From: Peterkaempfera griseoplana | GTDB lineage: Bacteria; Actinomycetota; Actinomycetes; Streptomycetales; Streptomycetaceae | Length of the DNA stretch: 34,581 bases | Direction: 5' to 3' | Assembly (NCBI RefSeq): GCF_001418575.1 | Contig: NZ_LIQR01000365.1 | Coordinates: 1-34,581 of the forward strand | Shown here: one piece after another, positions 10,785 to 34,520 of the stretch | Numbering within the stretch: the stretch's first letter is position 1 | How the letters are laid out: each line of letters starts with the position of its first letter | Translations under genes and position numbers: made by a program | Notes under the pieces: generated by a model | Told to the model about the DNA's origin: nothing | The model's database searches: none | Seen by the model: only the letters and a program-made list of their open reading frames with translations

Positions 10785-10808
10785 GTGCTGCATCAGGCAA
10801 CGTTCGCC
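10785..10808 (+). repeat. IS630 left terminal inverted repeat
   Basis: It begins GTGCTGCATCAGGCAACG and is preceded by the TA at 10783-10784. It pairs with 12260-12283 apart from three mismatches, and the transposase stop codon (10793-10795) lies within it. Confidence 0.85.
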
Positions 10809-11926
10809 CTGCTGACGACCTCGCATAGGCGCTCGTCATGGGCGTGCTTGTTTCGCCAGATGATGTAGCGGCGGATCATGCTGCCCTGCTCCTTGTGGCT
10901 GGCGTGGTCGGTGCCGTCGAGGGTGAAGTAGCGCAGGGCGGTGAACTGGGCCTCGATGCGGTTGAGCCAGGAGCTGTTGGTCGGGGTGTAGGCGATCTCG
11001 ACGTTGTTGGCCTCGGCCCAGTCGGCCACCCGACGGCAGCGCTTGGTGGTCAGGTGTGGGGAGTAGTTGTCGCAGACGATGGCGATGCGTATGTCGGCCG
11101 GGTGGAGGCTGCGCAGGTAGCGGCAGAACTCCAGGAACCTCGTCCGGTTCTTGGTCTTCTTGATGTGGCCGTAGAGTTTGTCCTTGCCTAGGTCGTAGGC
11201 GGCGAACAGGTGTCGCACGCCGTGCGGGCGGGTGTAGGTCGCCCGCCGCCTCGGCCGGGGTTCACGGTCGGGGTCCTTGTGCTTGCCTCCTCGTTCGGCC
11301 CACTGCCGCCCGGGGTGGGGCTGGAGGTTGAGCGGCCCGAACTCGTCCATGCAGAAGACGACTTCGGGCTCACCGGGCTCGGGTATGACCTCGCCGTCCG
11401 CGATCGCGTAGAGGTGTTCGACCCGGGCCTTCTTCGCCTCGTAGTCCGGGTCGCGGGAGACCTTCCAGGTCTTCACGCGTTGAAAGGAGACGCCCTCCTC
11501 GCGGAGCAGGACCCGCAGGCCCTCGTGGCTGATGTCGTCGACCACCCCCTCGGCGACCAGGAAGTCGGCCAGCTTGGCCAGGCTCCAGGTCGAGAAGGGC
11601 AGACCGTGCTCGGCCGGCTTGGACTTGGCGATCTTCTTGATCTCACGCCGCTCGGGCAGGGTGAAGGTTCTCGGCCGTCCGCCCTTGTACTTCGGGTAGA
11701 GCGCCTCGAAGCCGTCGGTGTTGAAGTCGTGGATCACATCGCGCACCTGGTCCGGGCTTGTGAACGTCACCTCGGCGATCTTCGCCACCGGCATGCCCTG
11801 CGCGGACAGCAACACCATCTGGGCGCGCCGCCACGTCACCACCGAGCCGGTGCCTCTGCGGATGATCCGCAGCAACCGCCGACCCTCGTCGTCATTGATC
11901 TCACGAACCCGCACCCGTTCAGCCAT
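10793..11926 (-). CDS. IS630-family transposase
   Basis: A 377-residue DDE transposase. The N-terminal helix-turn-helix region includes VAKIAEVTFTSPDQVRDVIH, followed by a linker with KYKGGRPRTF. Catalytic blocks are VFCMDEFGPL (first Asp), IVCDNYSPHLT (second Asp) and LNRIEAQFTALRYF (Glu). All three acidic residues are present and no frameshift is seen. ATG 11926 (MAERVRV) is preferred over an ATG two codons earlier and over the longer upstream extension, which reads as non-coding and would overlap the neighbouring small gene. The stop lies inside the left terminal repeat, as usual for compact insertion sequences. Expected activity is cut-and-paste into TA dinucleotides. Confidence 0.9.
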   Translation of the reverse strand: MAERVRVREINDDEGRRLLRIIRRGTGSVVTWRRAQMVLLSAQGMPVAKIAEVTFTSPDQVRDVIHDFNTDGFEALYPKYKGGRPRTFTLPERREIKKIAKSKPAEHGLPFSTWSLAKLADFLVAEGVVDDISHEGLRVLLREEGVSFQRVKTWKVSRDPDYEAKKARVEHLYAIADGEVIPEPGEPEVVFCMDEFGPLNLQPHPGRQWAERGGKHKDPDREPRPRRRATYTRPHGVRHLFAAYDLGKDKLYGHIKKTKNRTRFLEFCRYLRSLHPADIRIAIVCDNYSPHLTTKRCRRVADWAEANNVEIAYTPTNSSWLNRIEAQFTALRYFTLDGTDHASHKEQGSMIRRYIIWRNKHAHDERLCEVVSRANVA

Positions 11927-11973
11927 GCGCATAGCCTGGCAGCGACCGGAACCAGCAGACGGCTTCAACTGCG

Positions 11974-12240
11974 TCACATCGTCCGGCGTTTCCTCAGTTC
12001 GGCAAGCCATGCGTGCACCTGCTCGTCGTCGTGCAGGTAGCCGCCGCTCTCGTCCGCAGGAAGATCGATTCCGTAGAGGAGGCTCAGCGCCCACCAGGAC
12101 ACGTCGTCCCAATCGAGCTTGTCGACGGTCACCCATCGCCCGGCCCAGCGGTCGACCTCATCCCGGGTCAACCGACCCTCGACAAGTGCAACGAAGCGGT
12201 CTTCGATCTCATCAAGAGTCGGTTGGCGGCTGGCGTCCAT
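11974..12240 (-). CDS. Small hypothetical protein carried inside the IS630 element
   Basis: An 88-residue acidic protein (MDASRQPTLDEIEDRFVALV onward) with a central RDEVDRWAGRWV and a WWALSLLYGIDLP block, ending in a charged HAWLAELRKRR tail. I know similar small hypothetical proteins from actinomycetes but no function for them. It lies between the right terminal repeat and the transposase start, on the same strand, with the stop about 50 nt before the transposase ATG. It is therefore a passenger or accessory gene of the element. ATG 12240 fits the conserved-looking N-terminus; an in-frame ATG at 12264 would fall at the edge of the terminal repeat. No membrane segment, signal peptide or DNA-binding motif is evident. 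Possible roles include a transposition modulator or a captured host gene. Confidence 0.65.
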   Translation of the reverse strand: MDASRQPTLDEIEDRFVALVEGRLTRDEVDRWAGRWVTVDKLDWDDVSWWALSLLYGIDLPADESGGYLHDDEQVHAWLAELRKRRTM

Positions 12241-12259
12241 GCCCTGACCGTACAGGCAG

Positions 12260-12283
12260 GGCAAACGTTGGCTGATGCGGCAC
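12260..12283 (-). repeat. IS630 right terminal inverted repeat
   Basis: On the minus strand it begins GTGCCGCATCAGCCAACG and is followed by TA at 12284-12285. Confidence 0.85.
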
Positions 12284-12302
12284 TAGGTCCAATACCGGTG
12301 AT

Positions 12303-13728
12303 TTAGGTTGATTTCCGGCTTGTTGAGCTGGCTCTGGTTGGCCCGACGAGCTGGACCGTTGGGGTGTCCGGTGGTGGCGGGTTGTGGTGTTCGGCGCGTT
12401 TGAGGGCCCAGTTGGACATCTTGCGTTTGATCACGCGGGGGTTGGCCCGCAACCGCCGTGCAGGCAGCAGGCGTTCGGTGATCTCACGCAGGCTCTGGGC
12501 GGTCGCCCGGGTGAGTCGGGAGGGGGGAAAGCGCCGCCTGCCCGGTGACGTGGCGGCGGACGATGCGAAGGGTGCGGGTGAAGGAGAGCCGGTCCGGGTC
12601 GTGCCCGCCCTTGAGGGCGGCCTGGTGCATCAGGTCCCGCAGCGCGTGGTGGACCAGCAGGAACGCGAAGATCTCCTGCTCGACCCCGCGCGGGTGTTGT
12701 GAACGCAGCACGAGCCCGGGTCCGCCCTGATGGGTCTTGATCTCATCGAGGGTGTTCTCGATCTCCCACCGCTGGGCATAGAGGGCCGCAAGCTCCGCGG
12801 CCGGCGCCTGAGCCGGGTCGAGGATGGTGGTGATCAGTCGGTAGACGGTGCTGTCACCGCCGCTGTGGCTGCCAAGCGTGTACTCGATCACCCGCACCCG
12901 CTCCGGGTCCGCGCGCCGGTAGTTGTCCCGCGCGGCAACGATCTCGGACAGGTAGGAGCCGTCGGCGAGGGTTTCCAGGACTGGCAGCACGATCACGCTC
13001 CGCACCCGCCACAGCAGGTCGGCGCCGCCCACCTTCGCGGCCCGCCACAGGTCGAAACCGCAAAACCCCCGGTCCGCCAGGACGAGCATGCCCGTGACCA
13101 GGGCGGGAAACAGCCGCTCGGCCAGGACGGTCTCGTGGACCGTGAGCGGGCCGACCTCGGCCGCGAACACGGCGTGGGTACCGCACTCGGCCAAGGCTGC
13201 GACCCTCGCCTGCGGATAGGCACTACGACCCTGCCCGCGGCTGGTTCCCGGGCGCCCGAAGAACTCGGCGTTCGCCACTGTGTCGGGGGTGTCGAAGACG
13301 GTGCCGTCCACGGCGACCAGCCGCCACCGTCGGTACCAGGCGCCCTGCGTCTGGGCGACCGCAACCGGACGGCAGACCCGGGCGAACAGGGCCCGCAAGG
13401 GCTCTGGGCCCAACCGCAGCCTGGCCCGTCCGATCGCCGCCGTGGTGGGCACACGCCAGGCCTTCGCCCAGCGACCCTCCCGTTCCAGGCCCTGGACCAG
13501 GAGCCGGGCCACCTCTTCGTAGCCCTGCCCGAAGAACAGGCACATCGCCAGGACGAAATACACCACCACCCGTGCCGGCAGCAGCCGAGCCCGCTGCTCG
13601 ACCCGCCCGCACTCCGCGACCACTTCGTCCACCAGCTCCGGCGGAAACGCTCGCGTCAGCACCCCCAACGCGATCCGATCCGAAAACCGATCAACCCCTG
13701 ACGACTTCAACTGACCCGGCCTTGGCAC
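12303..13728 (-). pseudogene. IS4-family transposase with C-terminal frameshift
   Basis: The minus strand from ATG 13728 encodes an IS4-type DDE transposase (MPRPGQLKSSGVDRFSDRIA start). The insertion-domain context DGTVFDTPDTVANAEFFGRP carries the first Asp, ADRGFCGFDLW the second, and YAQRWEIENTLDEIKTH the YREK-like Glu region. The open frame ends early at 12484. Removing one base within the run at 12521-12531 restores a frame that stays open to a stop at 12303-12305, with a basic tail (RRLRANPRVIKRKMSNWALK) that looks authentic. I therefore infer a one-base insertion. The catalytic core is complete in the truncated product, so some activity is possible. The right end of the element is close to 12286, next to the IS630 target; the left end could not be placed. 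Confidence 0.75.
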
Positions 13729-21564: not shown

Positions 21565-23475
21565 TCAGGAGCGGAGCACCGTACCGTCGGGGAACCGCAC
21601 GGTCACGGTGCGATCCCCCTCACCGCTGAGACCCTCGGCCCCGTCGAGCGAGACGGTCACGGCCTCACGGATCTCCTGGGGGTGCACGGCGTCGCCTGAA
21701 AGGACGATGAGGCTGACATGGATGCTGCTCCCACCCGGGTGTGCGGTGCGCCGCAGGAAAGGCACGGCGGAGTGCGGCCCGTAGGCGTTCGCCTCGATGT
21801 CGCGGTCCACCGCAGCGGTCTCGTCCCAGCCGTACAGGCCGATGGCCGCGCTGGTCAGACCGTCGCTGCGGCGGGCGAGGGCCCAGCACGGGCCGGTGGC
21901 GGTGACAGGCTGCTGCCGGCAGCCGAGCGCATGGCCGCCCTCGCGCACGGTGATGCCGACCGGTGCCTCGACGCGGTGGACCCGGATCTCCCACGGTCCG
22001 TGGAGCAGCGAGGTGGTTTCGATGCGGTAGTCGGTGTCGTCCCCGGGGACCCGGGCGGTGTGCCAGGAGGCGGCTCGGCGGTCGTCGACGGCAATCGGAT
22101 GGATGCGGGTGCGGCGGCTCGCAGTGCCGTCGGCGCAGACGAGGGCGATGTGGTTGTCCACAGCGCGGGCCCAGGCGTGCGGAGCACTCTGCGGGGCCGT
22201 GTGAGTCGAGTAGGCGAGCTTGGCGTAGTGCGGGTCGTCGTCGGCCTTCGCGGGCTCGGGGGGGTTGTGGTCGCTGCCGTGGTTGACCAGGCGCACGATG
22301 CCGTCGTGGCGGGTGCCGTGCAGAAGCCAGCCCGGCACGGGCAGGGCGGTGTACTGGTCGGCCGTCTCGACGGGCAGCGGCTCCTCCCGCGCCGTCCAGA
22401 CGTCGTGGTCGGGAGGCAGCAGCAGTCCGAGGAAGGCTTTGCTCGCCCAGTACGGGGAGGCGGGTCCGGAGTAGGGCTGGGTACTGGGGAGAAAGGTGTC
22501 GTACCAGCCGAGGGTCAGAAGTCCTCGCTCGTCCGGGACGCCGCGTTCGGTGAAGTGCCTGACAGCACCCGAGGCCAGACGGCGGCTCAGCCCCGGTGGG
22601 TACGGGGTCGCACCGGTGAGCGCGCCCAGCCAGATCGGAGCCGTGGCCGCGTATCGGTAGCTCAGTGAGCGGCCCTGGTGAACGGGGGCGCCGTCACCGC
22701 CGAAGAAGTGGACATAGGAGCCGAGGAACGCGTTGAGGCGCTCCTGGTAGACCTTGGCGCGATCGCCGGACTCCTCGCCTGCGATCCTGGCCCACAGCAG
22801 CGGGTAGAGGTGCAGGGCCCAGCCGTTGTAGTAGTCGAAGTTGCGGCCGTCGCCGTCGGTGTACCAGCCGTCGCCGACGTACCAGTCCTCGAGCCGGTCC
22901 AGGCCGCCGTCGATGTCGGCCTGGGAGTACGGGGCGCCGACGGAGGCCAGGAACTGTTCGGAGACGACCTGGAAGAGGCGCCAGTTGTTGTCCCAGGTGC
23001 GGTGTCCGACGAAGCCGGAGAGCCAGTCGACGACCCGCTCCTTGGCCCCGGGGTCGAGACGGTCCCAGATCCATGGCCGGGTCTCGTGCAGGCCGATGGC
23101 GATCGAGGCAGCCTCGACCATCTGCTGTGAGCAGTCGGTGAGCTTCGGCCAGGCCTCCCCGGAGGCCGGATCGGTGCCGGCCGCCAGGCCCGCGGCGTAC
23201 CGCTCGATCAGCCGCGGGTCGACCTGGCCGCCCGCGCCGGCGATCCGGAAGGCCGCCAGCAGGAAGGTCCGCGCATAGCCCTCCAGGCCGTCGCAGACCA
23301 CTCCGGACCAGCTTGTCCGTCCCGGCAGCCGGTACTGCGCGAATCCGGGACTCCCGTGCGGCGCCACGCCTGCGAGCAGCACGTCGGCGAGGGCTTCCCA
23401 GTGGGCACGCGTCCACCCGGTGCGCGGCGAGAGCAGCCGGTCGGTCGGCGGAAGCTGCAGATACGGTGCGGTCAT
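21565..23475 (-). CDS. DUF2264-domain protein
   Basis: A 636-residue protein that I recognise as DUF2264 (PF10022) from its N-terminal LLSPRTGWTRAHWEALADVL and DGLEGYARTFLLAAFR and the tryptophan/aromatic-rich helical repeats after them, which suggest an (alpha/alpha)-toroid followed by a beta domain. It has no signal peptide, so it acts in the cytoplasm. ATG 23475 (MTAPYLQLP) is preferred; an ATG at 23487 is too close to a GAGGA site. It is the last gene of the lyase operon. A cytoplasmic toroid enzyme beside a PL8 lyase and importer would be well placed to cleave the imported unsaturated disaccharide, the job GH88/GH105 enzymes do elsewhere and which no other gene here covers. That function is inference. 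Confidence 0.8.
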   Translation of the reverse strand: MTAPYLQLPPTDRLLSPRTGWTRAHWEALADVLLAGVAPHGSPGFAQYRLPGRTSWSGVVCDGLEGYARTFLLAAFRIAGAGGQVDPRLIERYAAGLAAGTDPASGEAWPKLTDCSQQMVEAASIAIGLHETRPWIWDRLDPGAKERVVDWLSGFVGHRTWDNNWRLFQVVSEQFLASVGAPYSQADIDGGLDRLEDWYVGDGWYTDGDGRNFDYYNGWALHLYPLLWARIAGEESGDRAKVYQERLNAFLGSYVHFFGGDGAPVHQGRSLSYRYAATAPIWLGALTGATPYPPGLSRRLASGAVRHFTERGVPDERGLLTLGWYDTFLPSTQPYSGPASPYWASKAFLGLLLPPDHDVWTAREEPLPVETADQYTALPVPGWLLHGTRHDGIVRLVNHGSDHNPPEPAKADDDPHYAKLAYSTHTAPQSAPHAWARAVDNHIALVCADGTASRRTRIHPIAVDDRRAASWHTARVPGDDTDYRIETTSLLHGPWEIRVHRVEAPVGITVREGGHALGCRQQPVTATGPCWALARRSDGLTSAAIGLYGWDETAAVDRDIEANAYGPHSAVPFLRRTAHPGGSSIHVSLIVLSGDAVHPQEIREAVTVSLDGAEGLSGEGDRTVTVRFPDGTVLRS

Positions 23476-23584
23476 GCGGTGTCCCATTCCTCGGCGGTGG
23501 GCTCGGGCCTGCTGGGTGCGCGGTCCGAGGGGGAGAACCGGGGTTTCCCCCGGCTTTCCGTCGGGTCGGAGGGCTGGTCGCCGT

Positions 23585-25999
23585 TCAGCCGGAGTTGCTG
23601 AGCCTGGCGGTGTGGGTGTGGCCGTGCGAGCCGGAGACGCGGACGGTGATCACGGGCCGGCGGCCGGTGGTCACCGTCACCGTGTCGTCGGCGCCGGCCA
23701 CGCCGTCCGCGGGCCAGGGCAGCTGGAAGGTGAGCGTGGTCGCCGTCCGGCCCGGGTCGGCGACGGCCACGGAGATCCCTTCGTCGCGGCGCTGGATCAG
23801 GATCGTACCGGGCCCGTCGGAGGTGATCCCCCCGGCGCTTCCCGCCGTCCAGAAGTGCGCTGCCGTCAGGCCGAGCCGCGGGGCGTGTACGGCCTGGGCC
23901 TTGGGGGTGTTGGCCTCGATGCGTACCGGCCGGGAGGCCGCCCAGGCTGCGGTGTGTGCCGCGTCGAGGCCCGGCAGCAGTACATAGGCGTAGTCCGCGC
24001 TGCTCGGCGAGAGGCCGTGGTCGAGCCAGAGCGTGGCGTAGCGGCGGGTCAGCGACTCGGGCGTGCCCCCGGTGTCGGCCCCGATGTTGATGTCGTGCCA
24101 GGAGCCGGTGCGTTCCTCGCGGAGTGCGCGTACGTCGGCCCCTTCGGGGAAGACGTACCCGCCGACTCCGTCCAGGTGCGCCCAGTGGATGCCGGGCAGC
24201 GTTGCGCTCCATCCGAGATCCGCCGGCTGGGCCTGCCCGTCGACGGTGAGTGTGTTGCTGCCCGCGGCATGCAGATTGCGGTTCTCGACGACCGTCTCGA
24301 CGGTGCGGCCGTCGGCTGCCGTGATGCCTGCGCCGAGCGCGATCACCGCGTCGTCGAGGAAGAACCACGCCTTGCGGGCCTGCAGCGTGCTTCCCTCCGC
24401 CATCAGCTCCATCGCGGCAGCGCCGTAGCGGCCGCCCAGGACAGCGCCGCCCGCCACGGCGTTCCTGGGCGTGTGGGTGCTCGTGCCGCTGCCGCTGCCG
24501 AGGTCCGCGCGCGGCCGGGTGTCCACGGTGGTTCCCGGCAGCCGGTAGGCGTTGACGGTGGGCCAGAAGCTGTCCGAGAACTGGGTGCGGTCCTCGTCGT
24601 ATAGGTAGGTCATGCCGTCGCCGGTGTACCAGCCGTGCAGGTTCTCGCCGTTGCCGGCCTCGTAGGCGGCGATGCGCTGGGACGACAGGCTCAGCGCCAG
24701 GGTCCACCCGGTGCCGCGGTGCACGACCCGGTCCATGTCGGCGAAGACCGTGTGGCCGGTGAGGGCGGGGGCCGCGGTGATCGCAGGGTCGGCGAGCACG
24801 GCGGCGGCCCGCTTCAGTGCCGGGATGCCGGTCAGCGACTTGTAGGGGGTGTCGGTGTTGCGCTCGATCCAGCCCTTGGCGATCGCGCGCCACCGGTCGG
24901 CGTACTCCGGCGGGGCGCCGGCTGCCAGCAGCAGCACGTTGCTCGTGGTCCCCGCGCCGGTGTCGAAGTCCCGCTCGCCTTCCCGGGATATCGCCCGGCC
25001 GCGGACCGCGTCCATCATCAGCCCGTCGACGGTGACCGCGGCGAAGCTGCGCTCGACGGCTTCGTAGACCACCGAGATGCCGCTGTCGGTGATCTGCCAG
25101 TCGGAGTCGGCGAGCAGCGCCACCAGATAGGCGACCCGGCTGAGCAGCACGTTGCCATAGGTGCCGGTGTAGGCGACGTTGCCGTGCTGGACGTACGAGC
25201 CGTCGCGGTAGAAGCCGTCGCCGGAGGTGACATAGGCGAACAGGCTGTACTTTCCGGCGTCGCGGGTGTCGGACAGCCCGTCGCGGGCGAGGGCCAGCTT
25301 GTCGGCGCTGCGGCCGACGATGCCGCGCAGGGCGACGATCGCGGCCTTGTCCGCGCGGTTGGCACCGGTCTCGGCGAGCGAGGGGCTGTTGGTACGGCGG
25401 TCGGGGTCGGCGCAGAACCGGTCGACGACCGCGCAGTAGGCGGCGATCCGCTCGGCGGGGATGCGGTCGTACAGCAGGACGCACAGGTCCATCAGACTGC
25501 GCGCGGCGCCGATCTCCCAGTACCACCAGTTGCCCGACTCGTACTTGGTGGGGTTGTAGGCGCGGTCGTTGAGGAAGGCCAGCGCGTCGGTGAGCGCGGT
25601 GGCCACCGTCTCGTCGCCGTACAGCGCGGCGCCGGGCGTGGCCCACGCCGTCGCCAGGGTGAGCAGCCGGCCGTAGCTGAGGCTGAAGTTGGCGGCCGCC
25701 GTGACGGGCGCGAGGTCCGGCCACAGGGCGGTGCGTCCGGCGGTGCGGTCCAGGGTTGCCCACTGCGCCGCGGCGGCGGCGTCGAGGGTGGCCAGCGCGT
25801 CGGCGAAGACCGGGTCGGCGGGGTCGATGGAGCCGCCGGTGGTGAGCTCGGCGGCACGGGCGCGCAGCAGGTCGAACGGGTCGGTCCCGGCGGGGGTGGT
25901 TGCGGCCTGTGCTGCTCCCGCTCCCGTGGTCAGCGGCAGCAGCAGGGCGCCGACGCCGGCGGCGAGCAGGGTACGCCTGCGGAGGAGGTACCGGTCCAT
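23585..25999 (-). CDS. Secreted polysaccharide lyase family 8 (hyaluronate/chondroitin/xanthan type)
   Basis: An 804-residue exported lyase that cleaves uronate-containing polysaccharide by beta-elimination, giving 4,5-unsaturated products. The N-terminus has a Tat-type signal (RRRTLLAAGVGALLLPL, cleaved near AQA). The alpha-toroid carries the family active site: aromatic patch NWWYWEIG (Trp158-Trp159), SLAETGANR (catalytic Asn214), SYVQHGNVAYTGTYGN (His272 and Tyr281). The spacings resemble Streptococcus pneumoniae hyaluronate lyase (W291/W292, N349, H399, Y408). C-terminal beta domains include HGWYTGDGMTYLY and the end GHTHTARLSNSG. All catalytic residues are intact and the length is normal. 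It is preceded by a strong hairpin and followed by DUF2264. Substrate choice cannot be read reliably; the adjacent GalNAc-type catabolic genes favour chondroitin, while many actinomycete members act on hyaluronan. Confidence 0.9.
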   Translation of the reverse strand: MDRYLLRRRTLLAAGVGALLLPLTTGAGAAQAATTPAGTDPFDLLRARAAELTTGGSIDPADPVFADALATLDAAAAAQWATLDRTAGRTALWPDLAPVTAAANFSLSYGRLLTLATAWATPGAALYGDETVATALTDALAFLNDRAYNPTKYESGNWWYWEIGAARSLMDLCVLLYDRIPAERIAAYCAVVDRFCADPDRRTNSPSLAETGANRADKAAIVALRGIVGRSADKLALARDGLSDTRDAGKYSLFAYVTSGDGFYRDGSYVQHGNVAYTGTYGNVLLSRVAYLVALLADSDWQITDSGISVVYEAVERSFAAVTVDGLMMDAVRGRAISREGERDFDTGAGTTSNVLLLAAGAPPEYADRWRAIAKGWIERNTDTPYKSLTGIPALKRAAAVLADPAITAAPALTGHTVFADMDRVVHRGTGWTLALSLSSQRIAAYEAGNGENLHGWYTGDGMTYLYDEDRTQFSDSFWPTVNAYRLPGTTVDTRPRADLGSGSGTSTHTPRNAVAGGAVLGGRYGAAAMELMAEGSTLQARKAWFFLDDAVIALGAGITAADGRTVETVVENRNLHAAGSNTLTVDGQAQPADLGWSATLPGIHWAHLDGVGGYVFPEGADVRALREERTGSWHDINIGADTGGTPESLTRRYATLWLDHGLSPSSADYAYVLLPGLDAAHTAAWAASRPVRIEANTPKAQAVHAPRLGLTAAHFWTAGSAGGITSDGPGTILIQRRDEGISVAVADPGRTATTLTFQLPWPADGVAGADDTVTVTTGRRPVITVRVSGSHGHTHTARLSNSG

Positions 26000-26071: not shown

Positions 26072-26881
26072 TCAGCCGGCGCTCGGCTGGTAGGAGTCGC
26101 CGGTCACCGTGACCTGCTGCCCCTTGTCGGTGGTGACCGAGGTGGTGCTGAGGCAGCTGCCGGAGGCGGGGTCGGTGACGGTGGGCAGGCTGCCGGTGTA
26201 GTCGACGCCGAGTTCGGTGCCGACCGGCCTGCCGTAGGTCACGGTGACCTGTTGGCTGCAGCCCGCGGTGAGGTACGGCTCGATGAAGCCCTGGTCGGAG
26301 GCCTTGAACCGGCCCGAGGCGGCGGGCAGGCCGAAGCTGCCGATGTGGGCGACCGGAGCGCCGGTCGCGGTCTCGACGACGTCTCCCGTCATCAGCTGGG
26401 TGGTGTCGCCGGAGACGTAGTCCCGTTGCAGGACGAGCGAGTACATGGTGCCCGGGGTGTAGGCGAACCGCACCGAGCAGCTCACCCCCGCGCCGCCGTC
26501 GGCTCCGTATTGGCAGTTGGCGTCCGTCGTGGTGGCGTTGGCGTTGAACGAGCTGAAGACCGCCTGCAGCGTGTGGTTGCCGTTGGCGTCCAGCGGTTCG
26601 GGCTGGAAGCCCGCGTACGGCCGGGTGCCGCTCTCCAGGGTGGTGTAGTAGGCGAAGTAGATGCCGGCGGCGTCCGGCGCCGCGTCCACGGACAGCGGGA
26701 GCGTCAGCGTGGTGACGGGGGTGGGCGCGCCGGTGGTCCAGTGCGACGTCGGGGTCGACGCCCAGGACTGTCCGGCCACGCCCAGGCTGAGCAGGGCGGT
26801 TGCTCCGATGACCGTGCCGGAGCGCGCGAGCCGCCGCAGGGACGGGCGGGCGGTACGGCGTGCGTGGGGTGTCGCATTCAT
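26072..26881 (-). CDS. Secreted protein of unknown function
   Basis: A 269-residue exported protein. The basic N-terminus and hydrophobic stretch (SGTVIGATALLSLGVAGQSW, followed by ASA-like AST) form a Sec signal peptide. The mature part is beta-rich and aromatic (YFAYYTTLESG, GFQPEPLDANGNH, MYSLVLQRDYVSGDT, GFIEPYL), with paired Cys residues. The pattern recalls DUF3472-type beta-sandwich proteins, but I am not confident. A carbohydrate- or host-glycoprotein-binding role would fit its place between the M60 peptidase and the PL8 lyase genes, 40 nt and 72 nt away. The start ATG 26881 is preceded by GAAGGAG. No catalytic motif was recognised. Confidence 0.7.
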   Translation of the reverse strand: MNATPHARRTARPSLRRLARSGTVIGATALLSLGVAGQSWASTPTSHWTTGAPTPVTTLTLPLSVDAAPDAAGIYFAYYTTLESGTRPYAGFQPEPLDANGNHTLQAVFSSFNANATTTDANCQYGADGGAGVSCSVRFAYTPGTMYSLVLQRDYVSGDTTQLMTGDVVETATGAPVAHIGSFGLPAASGRFKASDQGFIEPYLTAGCSQQVTVTYGRPVGTELGVDYTGSLPTVTDPASGSCLSTTSVTTDKGQQVTVTGDSYQPSAG

Positions 26882-26921: not shown

Positions 26922-28259
26922 TCAGTCGCTGAGTGCGCTGGGGTCGACCGGCGGCGCGGGCAGCCGGAGTGCGGCCACTTCCGCCCTGCCGGTGTCGTCG
27001 ATCGGGAAGGCCCAGCGGTTGACGAAGAAGTCGGTGAGGTCGTAGCCGGCGATGCGGCTGGAGTAGGTGGCGAGCGCCCGGTAGCGCTTGGCCGTCTCGG
27101 TCCAGTCCGACTGCGGGTTCTCCTCGCGGACCAGCCTGTGCAGCCGCGGCCAGAAGTCGTCGCCGAAGGCCAGCTCCAGCTGGCGCAGCGGCACCAGCTT
27201 CTCGTAGGAGCTGAAGGAGGTCTCGTACGCCAGGCCCGCGGTGCCGAGCTTGGGCTGGGCGGACTGGAAGTAGTTGAGGCCGGTCTTGGCGTTCACCGTG
27301 AGCAGGTTGGACGACTGGCCGAGGGTCCGCTGGGCGGCGAGGGAGTAGATGTTCACCGTGACCTCGGTGAGCCCGGTGGGCTTGTACGCCATCTGCTGGT
27401 GCAGGTGGCCGAGTTCGTGGTAAAGGCCCCAGCCGCGGGTGCCCAGGCCCTGCACGGTGGTGGCCCGGTCCAGGTAGGAGCGGGGGAAGCCGTTGTAGCC
27501 GTGGGTGGCGTAGGCGCCCACTCCGGTGGGGACCTGGCTGACCTCGGTGAAGTGGTAGGGGCCGGCCTTGCGGACGTGCAGCGGCGAGGAGCCGTCGAGG
27601 CCGCTGATCGCCGCGTGCGAGGCGATGATGGTCTCCAGCAGCTCCAGCAGCGCCGTGTGGTCCTCGTCGCGGTAGAGCAGCGCGCCGTCCCGGGTGAGGG
27701 TGAGGATCGTGTGCGGGGCGGTGAGCTCGACGTACGGAACGTCGGTGAGCGCGTCCAGCTGCGCCTGGTACGCGGCCTCCGTGGTGGAGCCCAGGTCGAA
27801 CGCGGGCATCCGCACCGCCCCGGAGCGGAACTGCACCGCCGCCCGGTCCCCGTTGCCCGCGAGGGTCAGGTAGACCGGACCGCCGTACGGGTCGGTGACG
27901 CGGTTGGCGCCGGGCTTGAGCGGGTAGCTGCGCACCTCCTTGACCTGGCCGTACAGGTCCCACAGGCCGATCCACAGGGTGGGCACCAGCTCGTCGTACG
28001 GCAGGACGTTGAGGGTCAGCTCGGTTGCCGGCGGGACGTACAGGCCGGTGGAGTTGAACTCGCTGCCGCGCAGCGCCTGGGCGAGCCGAAGCCGTTCGCT
28101 TTCGGCGGAGGGGCGGGCGGTCACCGTGACGGTGGCGCCGACGTCCTCGGTGGCGGCGGCTCGCGCGGGGAAGGCGCCGAGCAGGCTCGCGGCACCGGCA
28201 CCGGCACCGGCCAGCCCGGCGAGGACGGTACGGCGGCTGACGGCAGGAGGATTGCGCAT
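26922..28259 (-). CDS. Secreted M60-type (enhancin/mucinase-like) metallopeptidase
   Basis: A 445-residue exported zinc peptidase. It has a Tat signal (SRRTVLAGLAGAGAGAASLL), a beta-rich N-terminal region, and the catalytic HELGHLHQQ (His281, Glu282, His285), followed at residue 299 by Glu in GLTEVTVNIYS, the third zinc ligand of the M60 motif HExxHx(8,28)E. M60 members cleave mucins and other O-glycoproteins (family knowledge). ATG 28259 has AGGGAG just upstream. It heads the operon M60, secreted protein, PL8, DUF2264, with LacI-type operator sequences in front. The combination of a glycoprotein protease with a glycosaminoglycan-type lyase suggests attack on proteoglycan, where protein core and glycan must both be cut. 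The substrate is not shown by sequence. Confidence 0.87.
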   Translation of the reverse strand: MRNPPAVSRRTVLAGLAGAGAGAASLLGAFPARAAATEDVGATVTVTARPSAESERLRLAQALRGSEFNSTGLYVPPATELTLNVLPYDELVPTLWIGLWDLYGQVKEVRSYPLKPGANRVTDPYGGPVYLTLAGNGDRAAVQFRSGAVRMPAFDLGSTTEAAYQAQLDALTDVPYVELTAPHTILTLTRDGALLYRDEDHTALLELLETIIASHAAISGLDGSSPLHVRKAGPYHFTEVSQVPTGVGAYATHGYNGFPRSYLDRATTVQGLGTRGWGLYHELGHLHQQMAYKPTGLTEVTVNIYSLAAQRTLGQSSNLLTVNAKTGLNYFQSAQPKLGTAGLAYETSFSSYEKLVPLRQLELAFGDDFWPRLHRLVREENPQSDWTETAKRYRALATYSSRIAGYDLTDFFVNRWAFPIDDTGRAEVAALRLPAPPVDPSALSD

Positions 28260-28309: not shown

Positions 28310-28339
28310 CAGCATGTAAGCGTTTGCTATGCAGGGCAA
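28310..28339 (-). promoter_or_regulatory. Candidate promoter of the peptidase-lyase operon
   Basis: On the minus strand TTGCCC (28334-28339) lies 17 bp before CATGCT. The spacer contains the operator-like sequence at 28315-28329. The arrangement mirrors the promoter-operator of the importer operon, although the hexamers are weaker. Confidence 0.4.
28315..28329 (+). promoter_or_regulatory. LacI-type operator-like site A
   Basis: TGTAAGCGTTTGCTA, about 55-70 nt before the M60 start. It shares GTAAGCG and the following TTT with site C in front of the importer. LacI-family proteins typically bind such pseudo-palindromes centred on CG. Confidence 0.6.
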
Positions 28340-28402
28340 GAGACTCGGCAAAGTTTCCATCAGTTTCTATGCATCAAGACGCGTTCATCAATCCGAGCAG
28401 CC

Positions 28403-28417
28403 AGTAAGCGCTCACAT
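28403..28417 (+). promoter_or_regulatory. LacI-type operator-like site B
   Basis: AGTAAGCGCTCACAT, 30 nt after the lacI stop. It is closer to a true palindrome (GTAAGCGCTCAC) than site A and lies about 88 bp from it, a spacing that could allow looping or a second repressor dimer. Confidence 0.5.
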
Positions 28418-28446
28418 CGGGGCGGGCCGGCGCAGAGCCGGGGCCG

Positions 28447-29547
28447 TCAGCCGCGACGGGCCCGGCCGGGGGTGCGGGGAGCCACCGACTCCCGAACCAC
28501 GATGTGGGTGCCGAGTCGCAGCACGCCGGTACTGGGCGCCCGCCAGTCGTCGTCGTCCTCGCTGGGCAGCGCCAGCCGCAGGGCCTGGCGGCCCATCTCC
28601 TCGAGGGGGATGTGGACGGTGGTCAGCCTCGGCCGCATCTCCTCGGCCACGGGCACGTCGTCGTAACCCACCAGTGAGACCTCGCCGGGGATGCGGACGC
28701 CCGCCTCCTCCAGCGCCTGGGCCACCCCCGCCGCGACGATGTCGTTGGCCGCGAAGACCGCGGTGAAGTCCCGTCGGCGGCGCAGCAGGTCGCGCATGGT
28801 GCGATAGCCGAAGCCCCGGCTGAAGGCTCCCGTGTGCACCAGGTCGTCGTCGGGTGCGACCCCCCGCAGCTCGTGGGCCCTGCGGTATCCGGCCAGCCGG
28901 TCGCGCGTGGTCGAGACCCCGGGTGGGCCGCCGAGGTACAGGATCCGCTCGTGGCCCTGGTTCAGCAGGTGGTCGGTGATGGCGAAGGCGCCGCCCTCGT
29001 TGTCGTACTCCACGGCGGCGGCCGGGACCCGTCCCCCCAGCGAGGGGCGGCCGCACAGAACCAGGGAGGCGCCGCCCGCGTGCAGCTCCTGCGCCCGGCG
29101 GGTGAGTTCCGCCGTGTAGGTGCGGTCGGCGATGCTCCCGCCCACCAGCACCACGGCGTCCGCGCGCTGCTCGTGCAGCAGGTCGACGAAGGCCAGCTCG
29201 CGTTTCGGGTCGCCCTCGGTGCAGCACACCAGGCAGAGCCGGCCGGTGCGGGCCGCCTCACGCTCGACGCCGCGTGCGATGAAGGCGAAGAAGGGGTCGA
29301 CGATCTCGCTGACGATGATCCCCACCGTGCGGTTGGAGGCGCCGGCGAGGGCGCGGGCGTGCGCGTTCACCACGTAGCCGAGCTCCCGCATGGCGCTCTC
29401 GACCCGCTCGCGGGTCTCCTGCGCCACCGGGTAGTTGCGGTTCAGGACCCGGGAGACCGTCGCCGTCGACACGCCGGCACGCTCGGCCACGTCCCTGATC
29501 GTGGCGCGCCGCTGTTCGATCGCCGCCTGTTCAGCGCCCCGGGGCAC
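28447..29547 (-). CDS. LacI-family transcriptional repressor
   Basis: A 366-residue repressor. The N-terminal helix-turn-helix and hinge are clear (TIRDVAERAGVSTATVSRVL, then AMRELGYVVNAHARALAG). The periplasmic-binding-protein-like sensor follows with VGIIVSEIVDPFFAFIARGV, ADAVVLVGGS and AVFAANDIVAAGVAQAL. GTG 29547 is preferred because AAGGAGGTGA ends five bases before it; the GTG three codons earlier overlaps that site. It lies between the 2-hydroxyacid dehydrogenase gene and the peptidase-lyase operon, all on the minus strand. Matching operator-like sites occur before that operon and before the importer, so it probably controls both, released by an imported oligosaccharide or its breakdown product. 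Confidence 0.92.
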   Translation of the reverse strand: MPRGAEQAAIEQRRATIRDVAERAGVSTATVSRVLNRNYPVAQETRERVESAMRELGYVVNAHARALAGASNRTVGIIVSEIVDPFFAFIARGVEREAARTGRLCLVCCTEGDPKRELAFVDLLHEQRADAVVLVGGSIADRTYTAELTRRAQELHAGGASLVLCGRPSLGGRVPAAAVEYDNEGGAFAITDHLLNQGHERILYLGGPPGVSTTRDRLAGYRRAHELRGVAPDDDLVHTGAFSRGFGYRTMRDLLRRRRDFTAVFAANDIVAAGVAQALEEAGVRIPGEVSLVGYDDVPVAEEMRPRLTTVHIPLEEMGRQALRLALPSEDDDDWRAPSTGVLRLGTHIVVRESVAPRTPGRARRG

Positions 29548-29598
29548 CGCGCTCACCTCCTTCCGTGCAGGAGCCTATTGCGTGTCGGCCGCCGGTGG

Positions 29599-30669
29599 TC
29601 ATGCGATGTGCCCCATGTCATCCGCGAGCACCGGGTGGCGCAGCGGCAGCCCCGCGGCGTACCGGGCGATCTCCTCTACGGCGGAGGCGCCGAGCCGGGC
29701 GACCTCATTGCCCTGGGCGCCGGCCAGATGCGGAGTGAGCAGGACGTTCTCCAGCTCCCACAGCGGGTGGCCGGCGGGGAGCGGCTCGGGGTCGGTCACG
29801 TCCAGGACCGCGTCCAGTCGGCCGGCCACCAGGTGTCGGGTGAGGGCCTCGGTGTCCACGAGCCGGCCGCGCGCCGTGTTGACCAGCAGTGCGCCGGGGC
29901 GCATCAGCGAGAGCCGTCTCGCGTCCAGCAGATGCCGGGTCTCGGCGGTGTCGGGCGCATGCACGGTGACCACGTCGCTCGCTGCCATCAGGGGGTCCAG
30001 ATCCATGGGGGTGGCGCCGAGGGCGGCGGCCTCCGCCGCGCCCACGTACGGGTCGTAGAGCAGGACCTCCGCCTCCAGGACCTGGTGCAGTAGCTCGATG
30101 ACACGGCGCCCGGTGCGGGAGGCGCCCACCACGCCGACGGTCAGCCCTGCGTTCCCCAGCCAGAGAGGGCGGGCCAGATCGGCCTCGATTCGGCCGGTGC
30201 GGCGGTCGGCGCAGCTGCGGGAGATCGGGAAGACGCGCTTGGCGCCCATGATGATCGCGGCGAGGGTGAACTGGGCCACGGGCAGGGCGTTGGCCGCCGC
30301 AGCGGAGGAGACCAGGACGCCCCGGCTGAAGGCCTCGGGTGCCAGAAAGGGCTTCACCGTGCCGGCGGCGTGCACGATCGCACGCAGCCCTGGCGACCTG
30401 TCCAGAACGGACCCGTCGATCCGCGGGCATCCCCAGCCGGTCAGCAGCACCTCGGTGTCGGCCAGCACGGAGGCCGCGTGCGCGGTGCCGAAGTCGTCGA
30501 GCACCTCCGCCGAGTGCAGCTCCGTGATCTGTTCGAGACGGGCACGCACGACGGGCGGGAAGAGGTCGTCCGGCAGGTCGGGACTCATGGCCAGGGCGGT
30601 CCGCGGCCGGCGAACGGGGCGCAAGGGTGCCCCCGTGGATCCGGATGACCCCTCGTCAGCGGTGGGCAT
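29599..30669 (-). CDS. D-2-hydroxyacid dehydrogenase family protein
   Basis: A 356-residue NAD-dependent dehydrogenase of the D-isomer 2-hydroxyacid family. The Rossmann motif is VGVVGASRTGRRVIELL. The catalytic Arg lies in VNTARGRLVD, the Glu in DVTDPEPLPAGHPLW and the His in LLTPHLAGAQG. ATG 30669 follows GGGAG with suitable spacing; the frame extends upstream to 30735 but without a better start. The stop is 51 nt before the lacI start on the same strand, so the two may be cotranscribed. Its substrate is unknown. Uronate breakdown after lyase action passes through alpha-keto acids, which such enzymes can reduce, but that link is inference. Confidence 0.87.
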   Translation of the reverse strand: MPTADEGSSGSTGAPLRPVRRPRTALAMSPDLPDDLFPPVVRARLEQITELHSAEVLDDFGTAHAASVLADTEVLLTGWGCPRIDGSVLDRSPGLRAIVHAAGTVKPFLAPEAFSRGVLVSSAAAANALPVAQFTLAAIIMGAKRVFPISRSCADRRTGRIEADLARPLWLGNAGLTVGVVGASRTGRRVIELLHQVLEAEVLLYDPYVGAAEAAALGATPMDLDPLMAASDVVTVHAPDTAETRHLLDARRLSLMRPGALLVNTARGRLVDTEALTRHLVAGRLDAVLDVTDPEPLPAGHPLWELENVLLTPHLAGAQGNEVARLGASAVEEIARYAAGLPLRHPVLADDMGHIA

Positions 30670-30843
30670 ATGAACTCCCGTAGTAAACGGATACTGCGAT
30701 GCTGCACGGTAGGGAGTCCCTGGCGGCAGCGTCAAGCGCGCCAGCGACGGGACCGGGCGGCCATGACCTCGGCATGCTGTGCTGCCACCCCCGGGTGGCA
30801 GTCGTCGTTGCTACCGGGGTTCTGGATGTAGCGACGAGAAGTG

Positions 30844-30872
30844 TTGACTTTTAAGAAAACGCTTACTAGCTT
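30844..30872 (+). promoter_or_regulatory. Promoter of the importer operon
   Basis: TTGACT (30844-30849) and TAGCTT (30867-30872) are 17 bp apart, good matches to the main actinomycete vegetative promoter. The operator-like site C fills the spacer, so repressor binding would block polymerase directly. Confidence 0.65.
30853..30867 (-). promoter_or_regulatory. LacI-type operator-like site C
   Basis: On the minus strand it reads AGTAAGCGTTTTCTT, sharing GTAAGCGTTT with site A and AGTAAGCG with site B. It lies between the -35 and -10 of the importer promoter, 51 nt before the first permease gene. Confidence 0.62.
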
Positions 30873-30917: not shown

Positions 30918-31922
30918 ATGGCTGACTCAGCGCCCGCTCTGCCGCGCACCGAACGGTCATCCGACCGCCAGGGCGCCTCAGCCCTGTCCCGGGCCCGTCC
31001 CGCCAGGCTCAGCCTGCGGCAACGTCTCAAGCGCGACAGGGTGATGCTGTTGCTCACCCTGCCCGGCCTGCTGTACTTCCTGGTCTTCCACTACGCGCCC
31101 TTGTTCGGCTACCTCACGGCGTTCAAGGACTACGAGGTGTATCTCGGGTTCGCGCAGAGCGCCTGGGTGGGGCTGGCGAACTTCCAGGCGATGTTCTCCG
31201 ACCCCGCCTTCTGGTCCGCGGTCGCCAACACGCTGCAGATCACCCTCACCCAGCTGGTCTTCTACTTCCCGGTGCCGATCGCACTGGCCCTGCTGCTCAA
31301 CAGCCTCGTCGGGGACAGGGTGCGGCGCTTCGTCCAGAGCGTGGTCTACCTGCCGCACTTCATCGGGTGGACGATCATCGTCTCCGTCTTCCAGCAGCTG
31401 CTCGGCGGCACGGGAGTGCTCACGCACGTGCTGCAGAGTCTCGGTCTGCCGGGGTACGACATGACCACCGATCCCGGGGCGTTCCCCTGGCTGCTCACAC
31501 TCGAGTCGGTCTGGAAGGACGCCGGCTGGGGCACGATCATCTTCCTGGCCGCCCTGCTCAGCATCGACCCGCAGCTGTACGAGTCGGCGGCGATCGACGG
31601 TGCGGGCCGTTGGCGCCGGACGTGGCACGTGACCCTGCCCGGCATCACGCCGATCATCATTCTGCTGCTGGTGCTCAACCTCGGCAGCATTCTCTCCACC
31701 GGCTTCGAGCAGGTCCTGCTGCAGCGCGACGCGGTGGGCCCGGATGCCGGCGAGGTCCTCGACACCTACGTCTACTACCACGGCATCAAGAGCGGGCAGT
31801 GGGGGCCGGCGGCGGCTGTCGGCCTGGTCAAGATGCTCATCGGCACGGCGCTGGTCCTCGGCGCCAACAAGGTGGCCCACTTCTTCGGCCAGGACGGGGT
31901 GTACCGTGGCGCTGCCCGCTGA
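30918..31922 (+). CDS. CUT1-type sugar ABC importer permease 1 (LplB-like)
   Basis: A 334-residue inner-membrane permease with six expected membrane spans, beginning VMLLLTLPGLLYFLVFHYAP. The first part FGYLTAFKDYEVYLG is typical of LplB/YtcP-type importers. The ATPase-contact EAA loop is YESAAIDGAGRWRRTWHVTL. GAGGA (30906-30910) lies seven bases before ATG 30918. It is followed by a second permease with overlapping coding and a binding protein. No ATPase gene is present, which is normal in Streptomyces, where one MsiK-type ATPase serves many CUT1 systems. Related importers take up glycosaminoglycan disaccharides in some bacteria (for example in Streptobacillus), consistent with the lyase genes nearby. 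Confidence 0.9.
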   Translation: MADSAPALPRTERSSDRQGASALSRARPARLSLRQRLKRDRVMLLLTLPGLLYFLVFHYAPLFGYLTAFKDYEVYLGFAQSAWVGLANFQAMFSDPAFWSAVANTLQITLTQLVFYFPVPIALALLLNSLVGDRVRRFVQSVVYLPHFIGWTIIVSVFQQLLGGTGVLTHVLQSLGLPGYDMTTDPGAFPWLLTLESVWKDAGWGTIIFLAALLSIDPQLYESAAIDGAGRWRRTWHVTLPGITPIIILLLVLNLGSILSTGFEQVLLQRDAVGPDAGEVLDTYVYYHGIKSGQWGPAAAVGLVKMLIGTALVLGANKVAHFFGQDGVYRGAAR

Positions 31923-32826
31923 GACCATGTCCGCACGCCGGTCGGGGAACGCCCGTCCGGCCTGGGTGGAGTCCCCGTCGCGGGTCGGCCGGGCGGCCAA
32001 GGCCCTGCTGCTGGTGCTGATCACACTCGCGGTGATCTACCCCATCGTGGGCGTGGTGGGCACCAGCCTGTCGGACCAGGCCACCATCTCCGTCAACGGC
32101 GGCCTGGTGCTCATCCCCACCCACCCGCAGCTCGACGCCTACCGGGAGATCTTCGCCGGCGGGGTGGTCTCCCGGGCCCTGCTGGTCAGTCTCGGGATCA
32201 CCCTGTGCGGCACGGCGGCGAGTGTGCTGGTCACCGTGGGCATGGCCTACGGCCTGTCCCGGCCGGAGGTCACCGGCTCCCGGGTGATCCTCATGGTGGC
32301 TCTGCTCACCATGCTGTTCAACCCCGGCATCATTGCCAATTTCCTCACCGTCAAGTCGCTGGGCCTGTACAACTCCTTCGCGGCTCTGGTGCTCCCTTCG
32401 CTGGTCAGCGCCTTCAACCTGGTCGTGCTCCGGTCCTTCTTCATGGGTCTGCCGGGCGAGCTGCTCGACTCCGCCAGGGTCGACGGCGCCGGCGACTTCC
32501 GGATCCTGGTCCGGGTCGTGCTGCCGCTGTCCAAGGCCGCGATCGCCGTGATCACCCTGTTCTACGCGGTCAGCTACTGGAACGCGTTCTTCAACGCGCT
32601 GCTCTACCTGCAGGACTCGGCCAAGAACCCGCTGCCCATGGTCCTGCGCTCGTTCGTCATCGGCGGCCAGTCACTTCACGAGGCCGCCGCGGGCGAGATC
32701 CCCGCACCACAGCAGGCCGTCCAGATGGCCGTGCTGGTGGTCGCGCTCGTCCCCATCCTGTGCGTCTACCCCTTCCTCCAGCGCTACTTCACCAAGGGCG
32801 TCCTCACCGGCGCCGTCAAGGGCTGA
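31906..32826 (+). CDS. CUT1-type sugar ABC importer permease 2
   Basis: A 306-residue second membrane subunit. Hydrophobic spans start with ALLLVLITLAVIYPIVGVVG, and the EAA loop is LLDSARVDGAGDFRILVRVV. The C-terminal PFLQRYFTKGVLTGAVKG is the typical end of these permeases. GTG 31906 overlaps the preceding gene by 17 bases and has GGGGT just upstream; ATG 31927, four bases after the upstream stop, is an alternative with a weaker site. It forms a heterodimeric channel with the preceding permease. Confidence 0.9.
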   Translation: MALPAETMSARRSGNARPAWVESPSRVGRAAKALLLVLITLAVIYPIVGVVGTSLSDQATISVNGGLVLIPTHPQLDAYREIFAGGVVSRALLVSLGITLCGTAASVLVTVGMAYGLSRPEVTGSRVILMVALLTMLFNPGIIANFLTVKSLGLYNSFAALVLPSLVSAFNLVVLRSFFMGLPGELLDSARVDGAGDFRILVRVVLPLSKAAIAVITLFYAVSYWNAFFNALLYLQDSAKNPLPMVLRSFVIGGQSLHEAAAGEIPAPQQAVQMAVLVVALVPILCVYPFLQRYFTKGVLTGAVKG

Positions 32827-32861
32827 CATCCCCCGCGCCCAAGAATCGAGGAGTCTCCGAC

Positions 32862-34520
32862 GTGTCCACCTCCCCTGTGCTCTCCAGAAGAGGTCTGCTC
32901 CGACTCGGCGCCGCCATCGGCGTGGCCGCCGCCGCCGGACCGGCGCTGACCGCCTGCGGCAGCTCCACCACCCAGGCCAAGGCCCACGGCCTCGAGGTCA
33001 CCCTTCCCACGTACCAGGCGATCAGCAGCACCCTCAAGCCCGACCTGCCGGGCACCGCAGCGGGTGTGCCGCAGGGCTTCTTCACCTACCCGAAGCAGTT
33101 GTTCCGCGCCGTGCAGAAGCCGCCGCTGAGCGGTCAGACGCTGAGCATCGCCGAGATGTCCTTTCTTCCGCCGCCGCCCGCCCGGGAGAAGAACGCCGCA
33201 TGGCGAGCGATCGAGGAACGGCTCGGCGGAAAGATCGACTGGACGGTCGTCGCGGCTGACGACTGGCCGACCAAGTTCAGCACCATGGTCGCCGGCGACG
33301 CCCTGCCGGACATGTTCGTGTACCAGGGCGGCGTCGACAACCTCCCCGCATTCGCCAAGGCCAAGTGCGCCGACCTCTCCCCGTACCTGTCCGGGGACAA
33401 GGCCAGGGACTACCCCAACCTGGCCAACATCCCGGACGCTATCTGGAAGCAGTGCCTGATCGGCGGCAAGCTGTACGGCCTGCCGATTCCCCGCAGCATC
33501 ACAGGGGGTGACGGCTTCTACCGGGCGGACCTGTTCGCGCGGGCCGGTGTCACCAGCCTGGACCAGATCGCCGACGCGGATGCGTTCTTCGAGCTGATGA
33601 AGGAGGTCACCCGTCCCAAGGACGGCGTCTACGGCATCATGACCGGCTTCACCAACATCGCGGTCAAGATGTTCGGCGCCCCCTACTACTGGCAGGTCGA
33701 CCACGCCACCGGGAAGTTCACCGCCGACGTCGAGACCGAGGAGTACCGCGCCGCGATCGAGTACGTCGCGAGGCTCAACAAGGCCGGCGTGTACTACCCG
33801 GGTTCGGCCGGCATGCAGAAGGCCAAGTACATCAACCTCTTCCAGGCCGGCAAGGCCGCGTACGTCTACGACGGCCTGCCCGGCTACCTCGGCCCCACCG
33901 GGCACCTGGCCACCATGAAGAAGATCGACCCGACCTTCGACGTACGGCCCTTCATGGCCCCGGGCAGGACTGCCGTCTCCTGGCCGGACAACGTGATGTT
34001 CGCGATGACCCTGATCAAGCAGGCGGGGGAGGAGAAGGTCAAGCAGGCCCTCGGTGTGGCCAACTGGGCCGCCTCACCGTTCGGCTCGGAGGAGTACACC
34101 CTCATCGCGTACGGTGTGGAGGGCGTTGACTACCAGCGCGACGACAAGGACAACCCGGTGCTCAACGACACCGGGACGCAGGACACCGCCGTGCCGTGGA
34201 AGTACATCGCCGCGCCCCCGCAGGCACTCTTCGACTCCGGCTCCGCCCAGGGCGTGCGCTACGTCCACGAGGCCCTGTCCAAGCAGATCGGGCGCGTGAT
34301 CGAGGACCCGACCGTGGGGCTGTACTCCCCGACCTGGGAGAGCAGCAACGGGACCCTCCTCACCCTGCGGACCGACACCGTCAACGACATCCTCGCCGGC
34401 CGCAAGCCCATGAGCGCCTTCGACGACATGGTCAAGCAGTACCGCAGCAAGGGCGCCGACAAGGCGCGCAGCGAGTTCGAGTCGGCCTGGGCCCAGTCGC
34501 AGAAGGGGTCCGCCAAGTGA
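32862..34520 (+). CDS. Sugar-binding lipoprotein of the CUT1 importer
   Basis: A 552-residue extracellular solute-binding protein (family 1, LipO/YtcQ-like, longer than the usual 430 residues). The N-terminus has a twin arginine (SRRGLLRLG) and a lipobox LTAC with the lipidated Cys at 32, so it is likely Tat-exported and membrane-anchored. The body includes VVAADDWPTKFSTMVAGDAL and DMFVYQGGVDNLPAF, typical of this class. GTG 32862 follows GAGGAG by eight bases; the long in-frame extension upstream is an antisense-like artefact overlapping the permease gene. It should capture the oligosaccharide released by the extracellular lyase. Confidence 0.9.
   Translation: MSTSPVLSRRGLLRLGAAIGVAAAAGPALTACGSSTTQAKAHGLEVTLPTYQAISSTLKPDLPGTAAGVPQGFFTYPKQLFRAVQKPPLSGQTLSIAEMSFLPPPPAREKNAAWRAIEERLGGKIDWTVVAADDWPTKFSTMVAGDALPDMFVYQGGVDNLPAFAKAKCADLSPYLSGDKARDYPNLANIPDAIWKQCLIGGKLYGLPIPRSITGGDGFYRADLFARAGVTSLDQIADADAFFELMKEVTRPKDGVYGIMTGFTNIAVKMFGAPYYWQVDHATGKFTADVETEEYRAAIEYVARLNKAGVYYPGSAGMQKAKYINLFQAGKAAYVYDGLPGYLGPTGHLATMKKIDPTFDVRPFMAPGRTAVSWPDNVMFAMTLIKQAGEEKVKQALGVANWAASPFGSEEYTLIAYGVEGVDYQRDDKDNPVLNDTGTQDTAVPWKYIAAPPQALFDSGSAQGVRYVHEALSKQIGRVIEDPTVGLYSPTWESSNGTLLTLRTDTVNDILAGRKPMSAFDDMVKQYRSKGADKARSEFESAWAQSQKGSAK

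Follow-up and report, generated by a model that had tools for sequence, protein, structure and literature searches.

The locus described here raises the question of whether a single LacI-family regulator, encoded between genes for secreted enzymes and genes for sugar uptake, controls both sides through one set of shared operators. An earlier note on this DNA had proposed this from three sites with a common GTAAGCG core, and it envisaged a small, local regulon that links the secreted enzymes to uptake. The window, that is, the whole stretch of 34,581 nucleotides of Peterkaempfera griseoplana DNA that was analysed, contains the following genes at this locus:

30918–31922, plus strand: sugar ABC transporter permease 1 (PF00528)
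31876–32826, plus strand: sugar ABC transporter permease 2 (PF00528)
32868–34520, plus strand: extracellular solute-binding lipoprotein (PF13416), with an N-terminal lipobox-like ALTACGSS
29599–30669, minus strand: D-2-hydroxyacid dehydrogenase family protein (PF02826)
28447–29556, minus strand: LacI-family regulator of 369 amino acids (PF00356, PF13377)
26922–28259, minus strand: secreted M60 (enhancin-like) metallopeptidase (PF13402), first gene of the lyase operon, signal sequence with an RR motif
26072–26881, minus strand: DUF3472-like secreted protein (PF11958, below cut-off)
23585–25999, minus strand: secreted polysaccharide lyase of family 8 (PL8; PF08124/02278/02884)
21565–23487, minus strand: DUF2264 protein without signal peptide (PF10022), related to beta-D-glucuronate dehydratase (former GH154)

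The importer (30918–34520, plus strand) is divergent from the dehydrogenase-lacI pair (30669–28447, minus strand), whose two genes lie 42 bp apart and are probably cotranscribed, and the lyase operon M60-DUF3472-PL8-DUF2264 (28259–21565, minus strand) follows lacI after a gap of 187 bp. Signal sequences, judged by eye, are present on M60 and PL8 and absent from DUF2264. The regulator combines a helix-turn-helix domain (PF00356, 73.5 bits) with a periplasmic-binding-protein-like sensor domain (PF13377, 124 bits), both above cut-off; its nearest characterised families are GalR, CytR and RbsR, each below its own cut-off, and against the NCBIfam GalR equivalog it scored 221 bits and did not reach the cut-off of 557 bits. 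It may therefore work like GalR, but it is not GalR. The protein ends ...GTHIVVRESVAPRTPGRARRG without leucine heptads, and a lac-type C-terminal tetramerisation tail was not found in it by eye. As side observations on gene content, the short M60-PL8 gaps of most orthologous loci are too small for a gene such as the DUF3472-like one (26072–26881, minus strand); the importer operon of orthologs runs on into an M1 peptidase gene (L063:3448-4914, L081:3423-4907), followed in L063 by a beta-helix protein, and the contig of the window stops shortly after the binding-protein gene; and two adjacent transposase genes, of DDE_3 and IS4 type, occupy window positions 10793–13728 (minus strand).

The enzymes suggest what this locus degrades. 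The nearest solved structures to the PL8 protein are 2wco (a bacterial secreted lyase), chondroitin AC lyase and xanthan lyase, and DUF2264 matches the beta-D-glucuronate dehydratases of PDB 9o4u and 9nwf, a family formerly named GH154 (PMC12269599). Taken together, the PL8 relatives and the DUF2264 match make it likely that the polymer contains glucuronate, and by analogy the substrate is probably hyaluronan- or chondroitin-like, i.e. glycosaminoglycan-like. GH88/GH105 (PF07470) was found neither in this 95.6%-complete genome nor in the complete genome of a relative (G143), although PL8 and a GH154-type dehydratase homolog are present; another genome (G096) has one strong PF07470 match.

Four candidate operators and three promoters were delineated in the regions flanking lacI:

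28314–28329, minus strand: operator A, TAGCAAACGCTTACAT on the minus strand, within the -35/-10 spacer of the M60-DUF3472-PL8-DUF2264 operon
28402–28417, minus strand: operator B, ATGTGAGCGCTTACTG on the minus strand, an auxiliary site 88 bp upstream of A and 29 bp beyond the lacI stop
30853–30868, plus strand: operator C, AAGAAAACGCTTACTA, within the -35/-10 spacer of the importer operon
30681–30696, minus strand: operator D, CAGTATCCGTTTACTA on the minus strand, after the -10 element and before the ribosome-binding site in the dehydrogenase-lacI unit
28311–28339, minus strand: lyase-operon promoter, TTGCCC (28339–28334), 17-nt spacer, CATGCT (28316–28311)
30844–30872, plus strand: importer promoter, TTGACT (30844), 17-nt spacer, TAGCTT (30867–30872)
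30706–30735, minus strand: dehydrogenase-lacI promoter, TTGACG (30735), 18-nt spacer, TACCGT (30711), then operator D

The three sites of the earlier note, TGTAAGCGTTTGCTA (A, 28315–28329), AGTAAGCGCTCACAT (B, 28403–28417) and AAGAAAACGCTTACT (C, 30853–30867; reverse AGTAAGCGTTTTCTT), are all present where it had placed them, with GTAAGCG common to all. Its promoter reading holds as well, in that A and C fill 17-nt spacers (TTGCCC/CATGCT and TTGACT/TAGCTT, respectively) in the same orientation relative to transcription, the better-conserved half CGCTTAC facing downstream in both. Operator B, with a centre-to-centre distance of 88 bp to A, is not within a promoter. The fourth site, D (TAGTAAACGGATACTG, 30681–30696), was absent from that first list and was revealed by alignment of five orthologous loci. 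A generic promoter scanner reported no promoter at these sites, all of which are poor matches to the sigma-70 consensus; this null result reflects weak consensus rather than promoter absence, and what supports the promoters is that they are conserved in about 50 genomes. In orthologs of the lyase-operon promoter, CTTGC/CTTGAC and (C/A)ATGCT recur, again as a weak match to consensus; the A-type form TAGCAAnCGCTTACATGCTG is conserved across Streptomyces orthologs, and the -35 element TTGACG of the dehydrogenase-lacI unit is conserved on the opposite strand. An RNA element was not found in the window with Rfam.

The motif is rare, as genome scans with IUPAC patterns over the 8.24-Mb genome revealed. 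The pattern GTAAGCGNTNNC had 12 matches, three of them sites of this locus (chance of three within 2.56 kb, Poisson P about 4e-9), and WGTAARCGNWYDC, a pattern written from all four window sites A–D, had six matches, four of them here, while the same pattern written backwards as a control gave two. Matches at C60, C148, C220, C645, C791, C793 and C794 were discarded because of low matrix scores (about 4–14 versus 17–26 for A–D).

Both the locus and its sites are conserved. Orthologs of the regulator (59–83% identity) occur in Streptomyces, Nonomuraea, Kribbella, Catenulispora, Actinocatenispora and others, mostly with identical gene order: the importer divergent from 2-hydroxyacid dehydrogenase-lacI, then M60 peptidase, PL8 lyase and DUF2264. 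A position matrix from about 70 loci describes the site as an even palindrome with a central CG (GTAA-N-CG-N-(T/G)T-N-C, CG 0.99 each). It detected C-type and D-type sites in all 70 divergent regions (about 4 with permuted motifs; 0.25 on average for the pair with column-permuted matrices) and at least one A/B-type site in 62 of 73 lacI-lyase regions (column-permuted, about 1.5). Because the loci used to refine this matrix were also those in which the sites were then counted, a cleaner test not trained on the orthologs was added: of 68 divergent regions, 67 had at least two GTAANCG cores (shuffled, 0.75), and of 71 lacI-lyase regions, 55 had the 13-mer derived from the window (shuffled, 0.1), one of L045 and L099, apparently one genome, having been dropped. 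A-type sites are missing mainly in distant loci, where the next gene lies close behind lacI or the enzyme genes have moved (Kribbella, Catenulispora, L106). An alternative interpretation is that the sites are chance matches in AT-rich intergenic patches, since the GTAAGCG core is short and such regions are AT-rich in this high-G+C genome, but we consider the probability of this negligible because most matches to the four-site pattern are local, and the pair of sites kept throughout the orthologous divergent regions, as well as the shuffled controls, refute it.

A further question is whose operators these are. The best and sole strong match outside the locus, at C386, precedes a Gfo/Idh-DUF993 operon and was considered as a fifth target. 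It was rejected as such: orthologs of this operon elsewhere have related yet different sites, mostly of the type AGAAAGCGCTT(T/G)CT, also in genomes that yielded no lyase-locus lacI; several genomes have a LacI paralog (46–52% identity) divergent to the operon. These sites and the divergent paralog indicate that the C386 site most likely belongs to the paralogous LacI. This genome also encodes a paralog at 47% identity; on the paralog contig C498, a site of this motif was not found. One could thus suppose that A–D are operators of another of the many LacI-family proteins of this genome, the local regulator cross-binding or being uninvolved, all the more so as paralog sites (AGAAAGCGCTT[TG]CT) are similar and C386 might be read by either protein. 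We regard this as very unlikely because paralog sites have a GAAAG or GCAAG half instead of the GTAAG of the A–D type, because the site type travels with the local lacI ortholog from Streptomyces to Nonomuraea and Catenulispora, and because D sits on the lacI unit itself.

With four of the six genome-wide matches here, a conserved locus and conserved sites, we conclude that these genes very probably form a local, autoregulated regulon in which a LacI-family repressor controls the use of a glucuronate-containing polysaccharide. Phylogenetic footprinting in about 70 loci, together with how seldom the motif occurs in the rest of the genome, upholds the small regulon first proposed; the motif is neither common across the genome nor, with C386 explained by a paralog, traced to another regulator. 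Without inducer, LacI would bind four operators, each of 16 bp and of the WWGTAANCGNTTNCTA type; in the -35/-10 spacers at A and C it would block RNA polymerase at both the lyase and the importer operon, and at D, shortly past the start of the dehydrogenase-lacI transcript, it would limit its own synthesis, such that the presence of D makes the predicted regulon autoregulatory. The inducer would be a saccharide from the lyase/importer pathway.

Operator B coincides in part with the lacI stop codon in most orthologs, the TGA lying inside the operator, and part of its left half is therefore conserved for another reason; in the window B lies 29 bp past the stop. The distance between A and B follows a ladder of about 10.9 bp across species: among 41 loci with both sites it is 77–79 bp in 29, 88–90 bp in nine, 101 bp in one and 110 bp in one, with one weak pair at 56 bp, so that the values fall near 78, 89, 101 and 110 bp. 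In the LacI tree, L060 (79 bp) is the sister of the window (88 bp), their spacings being about one helical turn apart; L073/L077 (90 bp) and L071 (101 bp) form a clade inside the 79-bp group; L129 (89 bp), a partial protein, is sister to L086 (79 bp); and Nonomuraea and its kin have 77, 89 and 110 bp. The larger steps on this tree, 9, 11, 11, 10, 10, 12 and 21 bp, lie close to multiples of 11 (P about 0.001 versus random steps). Periodicity of about 10.9 bp among clade representatives was significant (Rayleigh R 0.86–0.89, P ≤ 0.0003), although we caution that independent spacing changes are few (about seven) and that clades were collapsed by the analyst's own judgement. C-D distances in the same genomes revealed no periodicity (R 0.30, P 0.49). 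The distance from the lacI stop to B was also tried as a control and proved uninformative, since B usually overlaps the stop codon. Extra operator pairs with the same helical spacing occur 77 bp apart near a second M60 gene (L081:3183-3275) and 87 bp apart beside a beta-helix gene (L111:2200-2302).

A repressor binding cooperatively across a DNA loop would be expected to leave such a ladder, and it points to A and B being helically phased for GalR-like cooperative looping. B would then reinforce repression at A, with the A- and B-bound dimers touching in fixed helical phase and closing a loop of about 78–110 bp over the upstream promoter region, as GalR does with the two gal operators. From the comparative spacing we consider an A-B loop somewhat better than an even bet. 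The same regulon and repressor could operate without a loop, A, C and D acting independently, B being no more than an upstream operator, or else a reservoir or a roadblock to readthrough from lacI, and the A-B distance being fixed by descent. We hold this to be possible if rather doubtful: a LacI without a tetramerisation tail fits it, about 14 of the 55 loci with an A site (roughly a quarter) have a B that is degenerate or not recognised, and the distance of exactly 79 bp in 27 loci, nearly all Streptomyces, is expected from descent alone, but the observed changes lie near whole helical turns in several lineages (the window, L071/L073, L129, L103, L105), whereas C-D distances drift freely. 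The loss of B does argue that a loop, if formed, is not indispensable. Five loci in which B is missing (L082, L088, L090, L095, L124) have an element of the form TGCKCRATTCTGCKCG roughly 67–70 bp upstream of A, which is possibly a diverged B.

A further element, E, lies between the two operators:

28353–28369, minus strand: element E, TAGAAACTGATGGAAAC, two YAGWAA copies in direct orientation, period 10 bp, at a fixed 40–42 bp from A in most orthologs

Element E is conserved about as strongly as operator A, and a third repeat is present in Nonomuraea loci. As a genome-wide regulator motif it was rejected, having at most two matches per genome and being nearly unique in each. Because the distances from A to E (40–42 bp) and to the -35 element (10–11 bp) are constant, the changes in A-B length fall between B and E. 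Element E could be an activator site, a contact for alpha-CTD or a case of phased bending. A fuller version of the looping proposal, to which we give slightly less than even chances, is that a dimeric actinomycete LacI-family repressor loops A to B, that the loop evolves by whole turns (about 7, 8, 9 and 10), and that the phased repeats of E bend the DNA or bind a partner, which would assist looping or promoter activation.

Among known systems, the chondroitin locus PUL25 of Bacteroides caccae (PMC12269599) similarly unites peptidases, a glycosaminoglycan lyase and a GH154-type glucuronate dehydratase in a single locus, but with PL35 and GH88, in contrast to the PL8, ABC importer and LacI control seen here and to a genome in which GH88 was not found. 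Literature searches found no regulator of PL8 lyases for Streptomyces and relatives, and no direct precedent for the motif, for DUF2264 or for a LacI protein paired with hyaluronate lyase; the locus offers a testable regulon for the breakdown of a glucuronate polymer, probably a glycosaminoglycan, in these bacteria. The local carbohydrate regulons of LacI-family regulators (Ravcheev et al. 2014, PMC4052901) share the even 16-bp palindrome with a central CG, an autoregulated lacI adjoining the controlled genes and operators overlapping promoters; a search of the survey's main text gave no mention of hyaluronan or chondroitin and just two of Streptomycetaceae. Its inter-site distances peak at 13, 22 and 32 bp, and the present ladder of 78, 89, 101 and 110 bp is longer. 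The type of regulon is well known, and what merits an experiment is the A-B pair with its helical phasing: about 40 natural whole-turn spacings constitute a ready series to test looping by a tailless LacI-family protein outside Escherichia coli.

The GalR operator consensus is GTGTAANCGNTTACAC. The E. coli GalR-gal system resembles the present one in its similar half-site, its phased operator pair and a repressor that here too would bind as dimers, and GalR is the best curated model for this LacI, albeit below cut-off; here, however, both operators are upstream of the start codon, A is in the promoter spacer, and the loop is proposed from comparative spacing alone. In gal, OE and OI form a 113-bp loop, repression occurs only at full-turn spacings and the dimers stack into a tetramer (PMC4693257). 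The E. coli lac repressor likewise uses a primary and an auxiliary operator, with repression set by helical phase and a fitted in-vivo repeat of 11.1–11.6 bp, above 10.5 bp (PMC1762422). Since Lac is a tetramer and the present LacI is without the lac-type tail, GalR is the better model.
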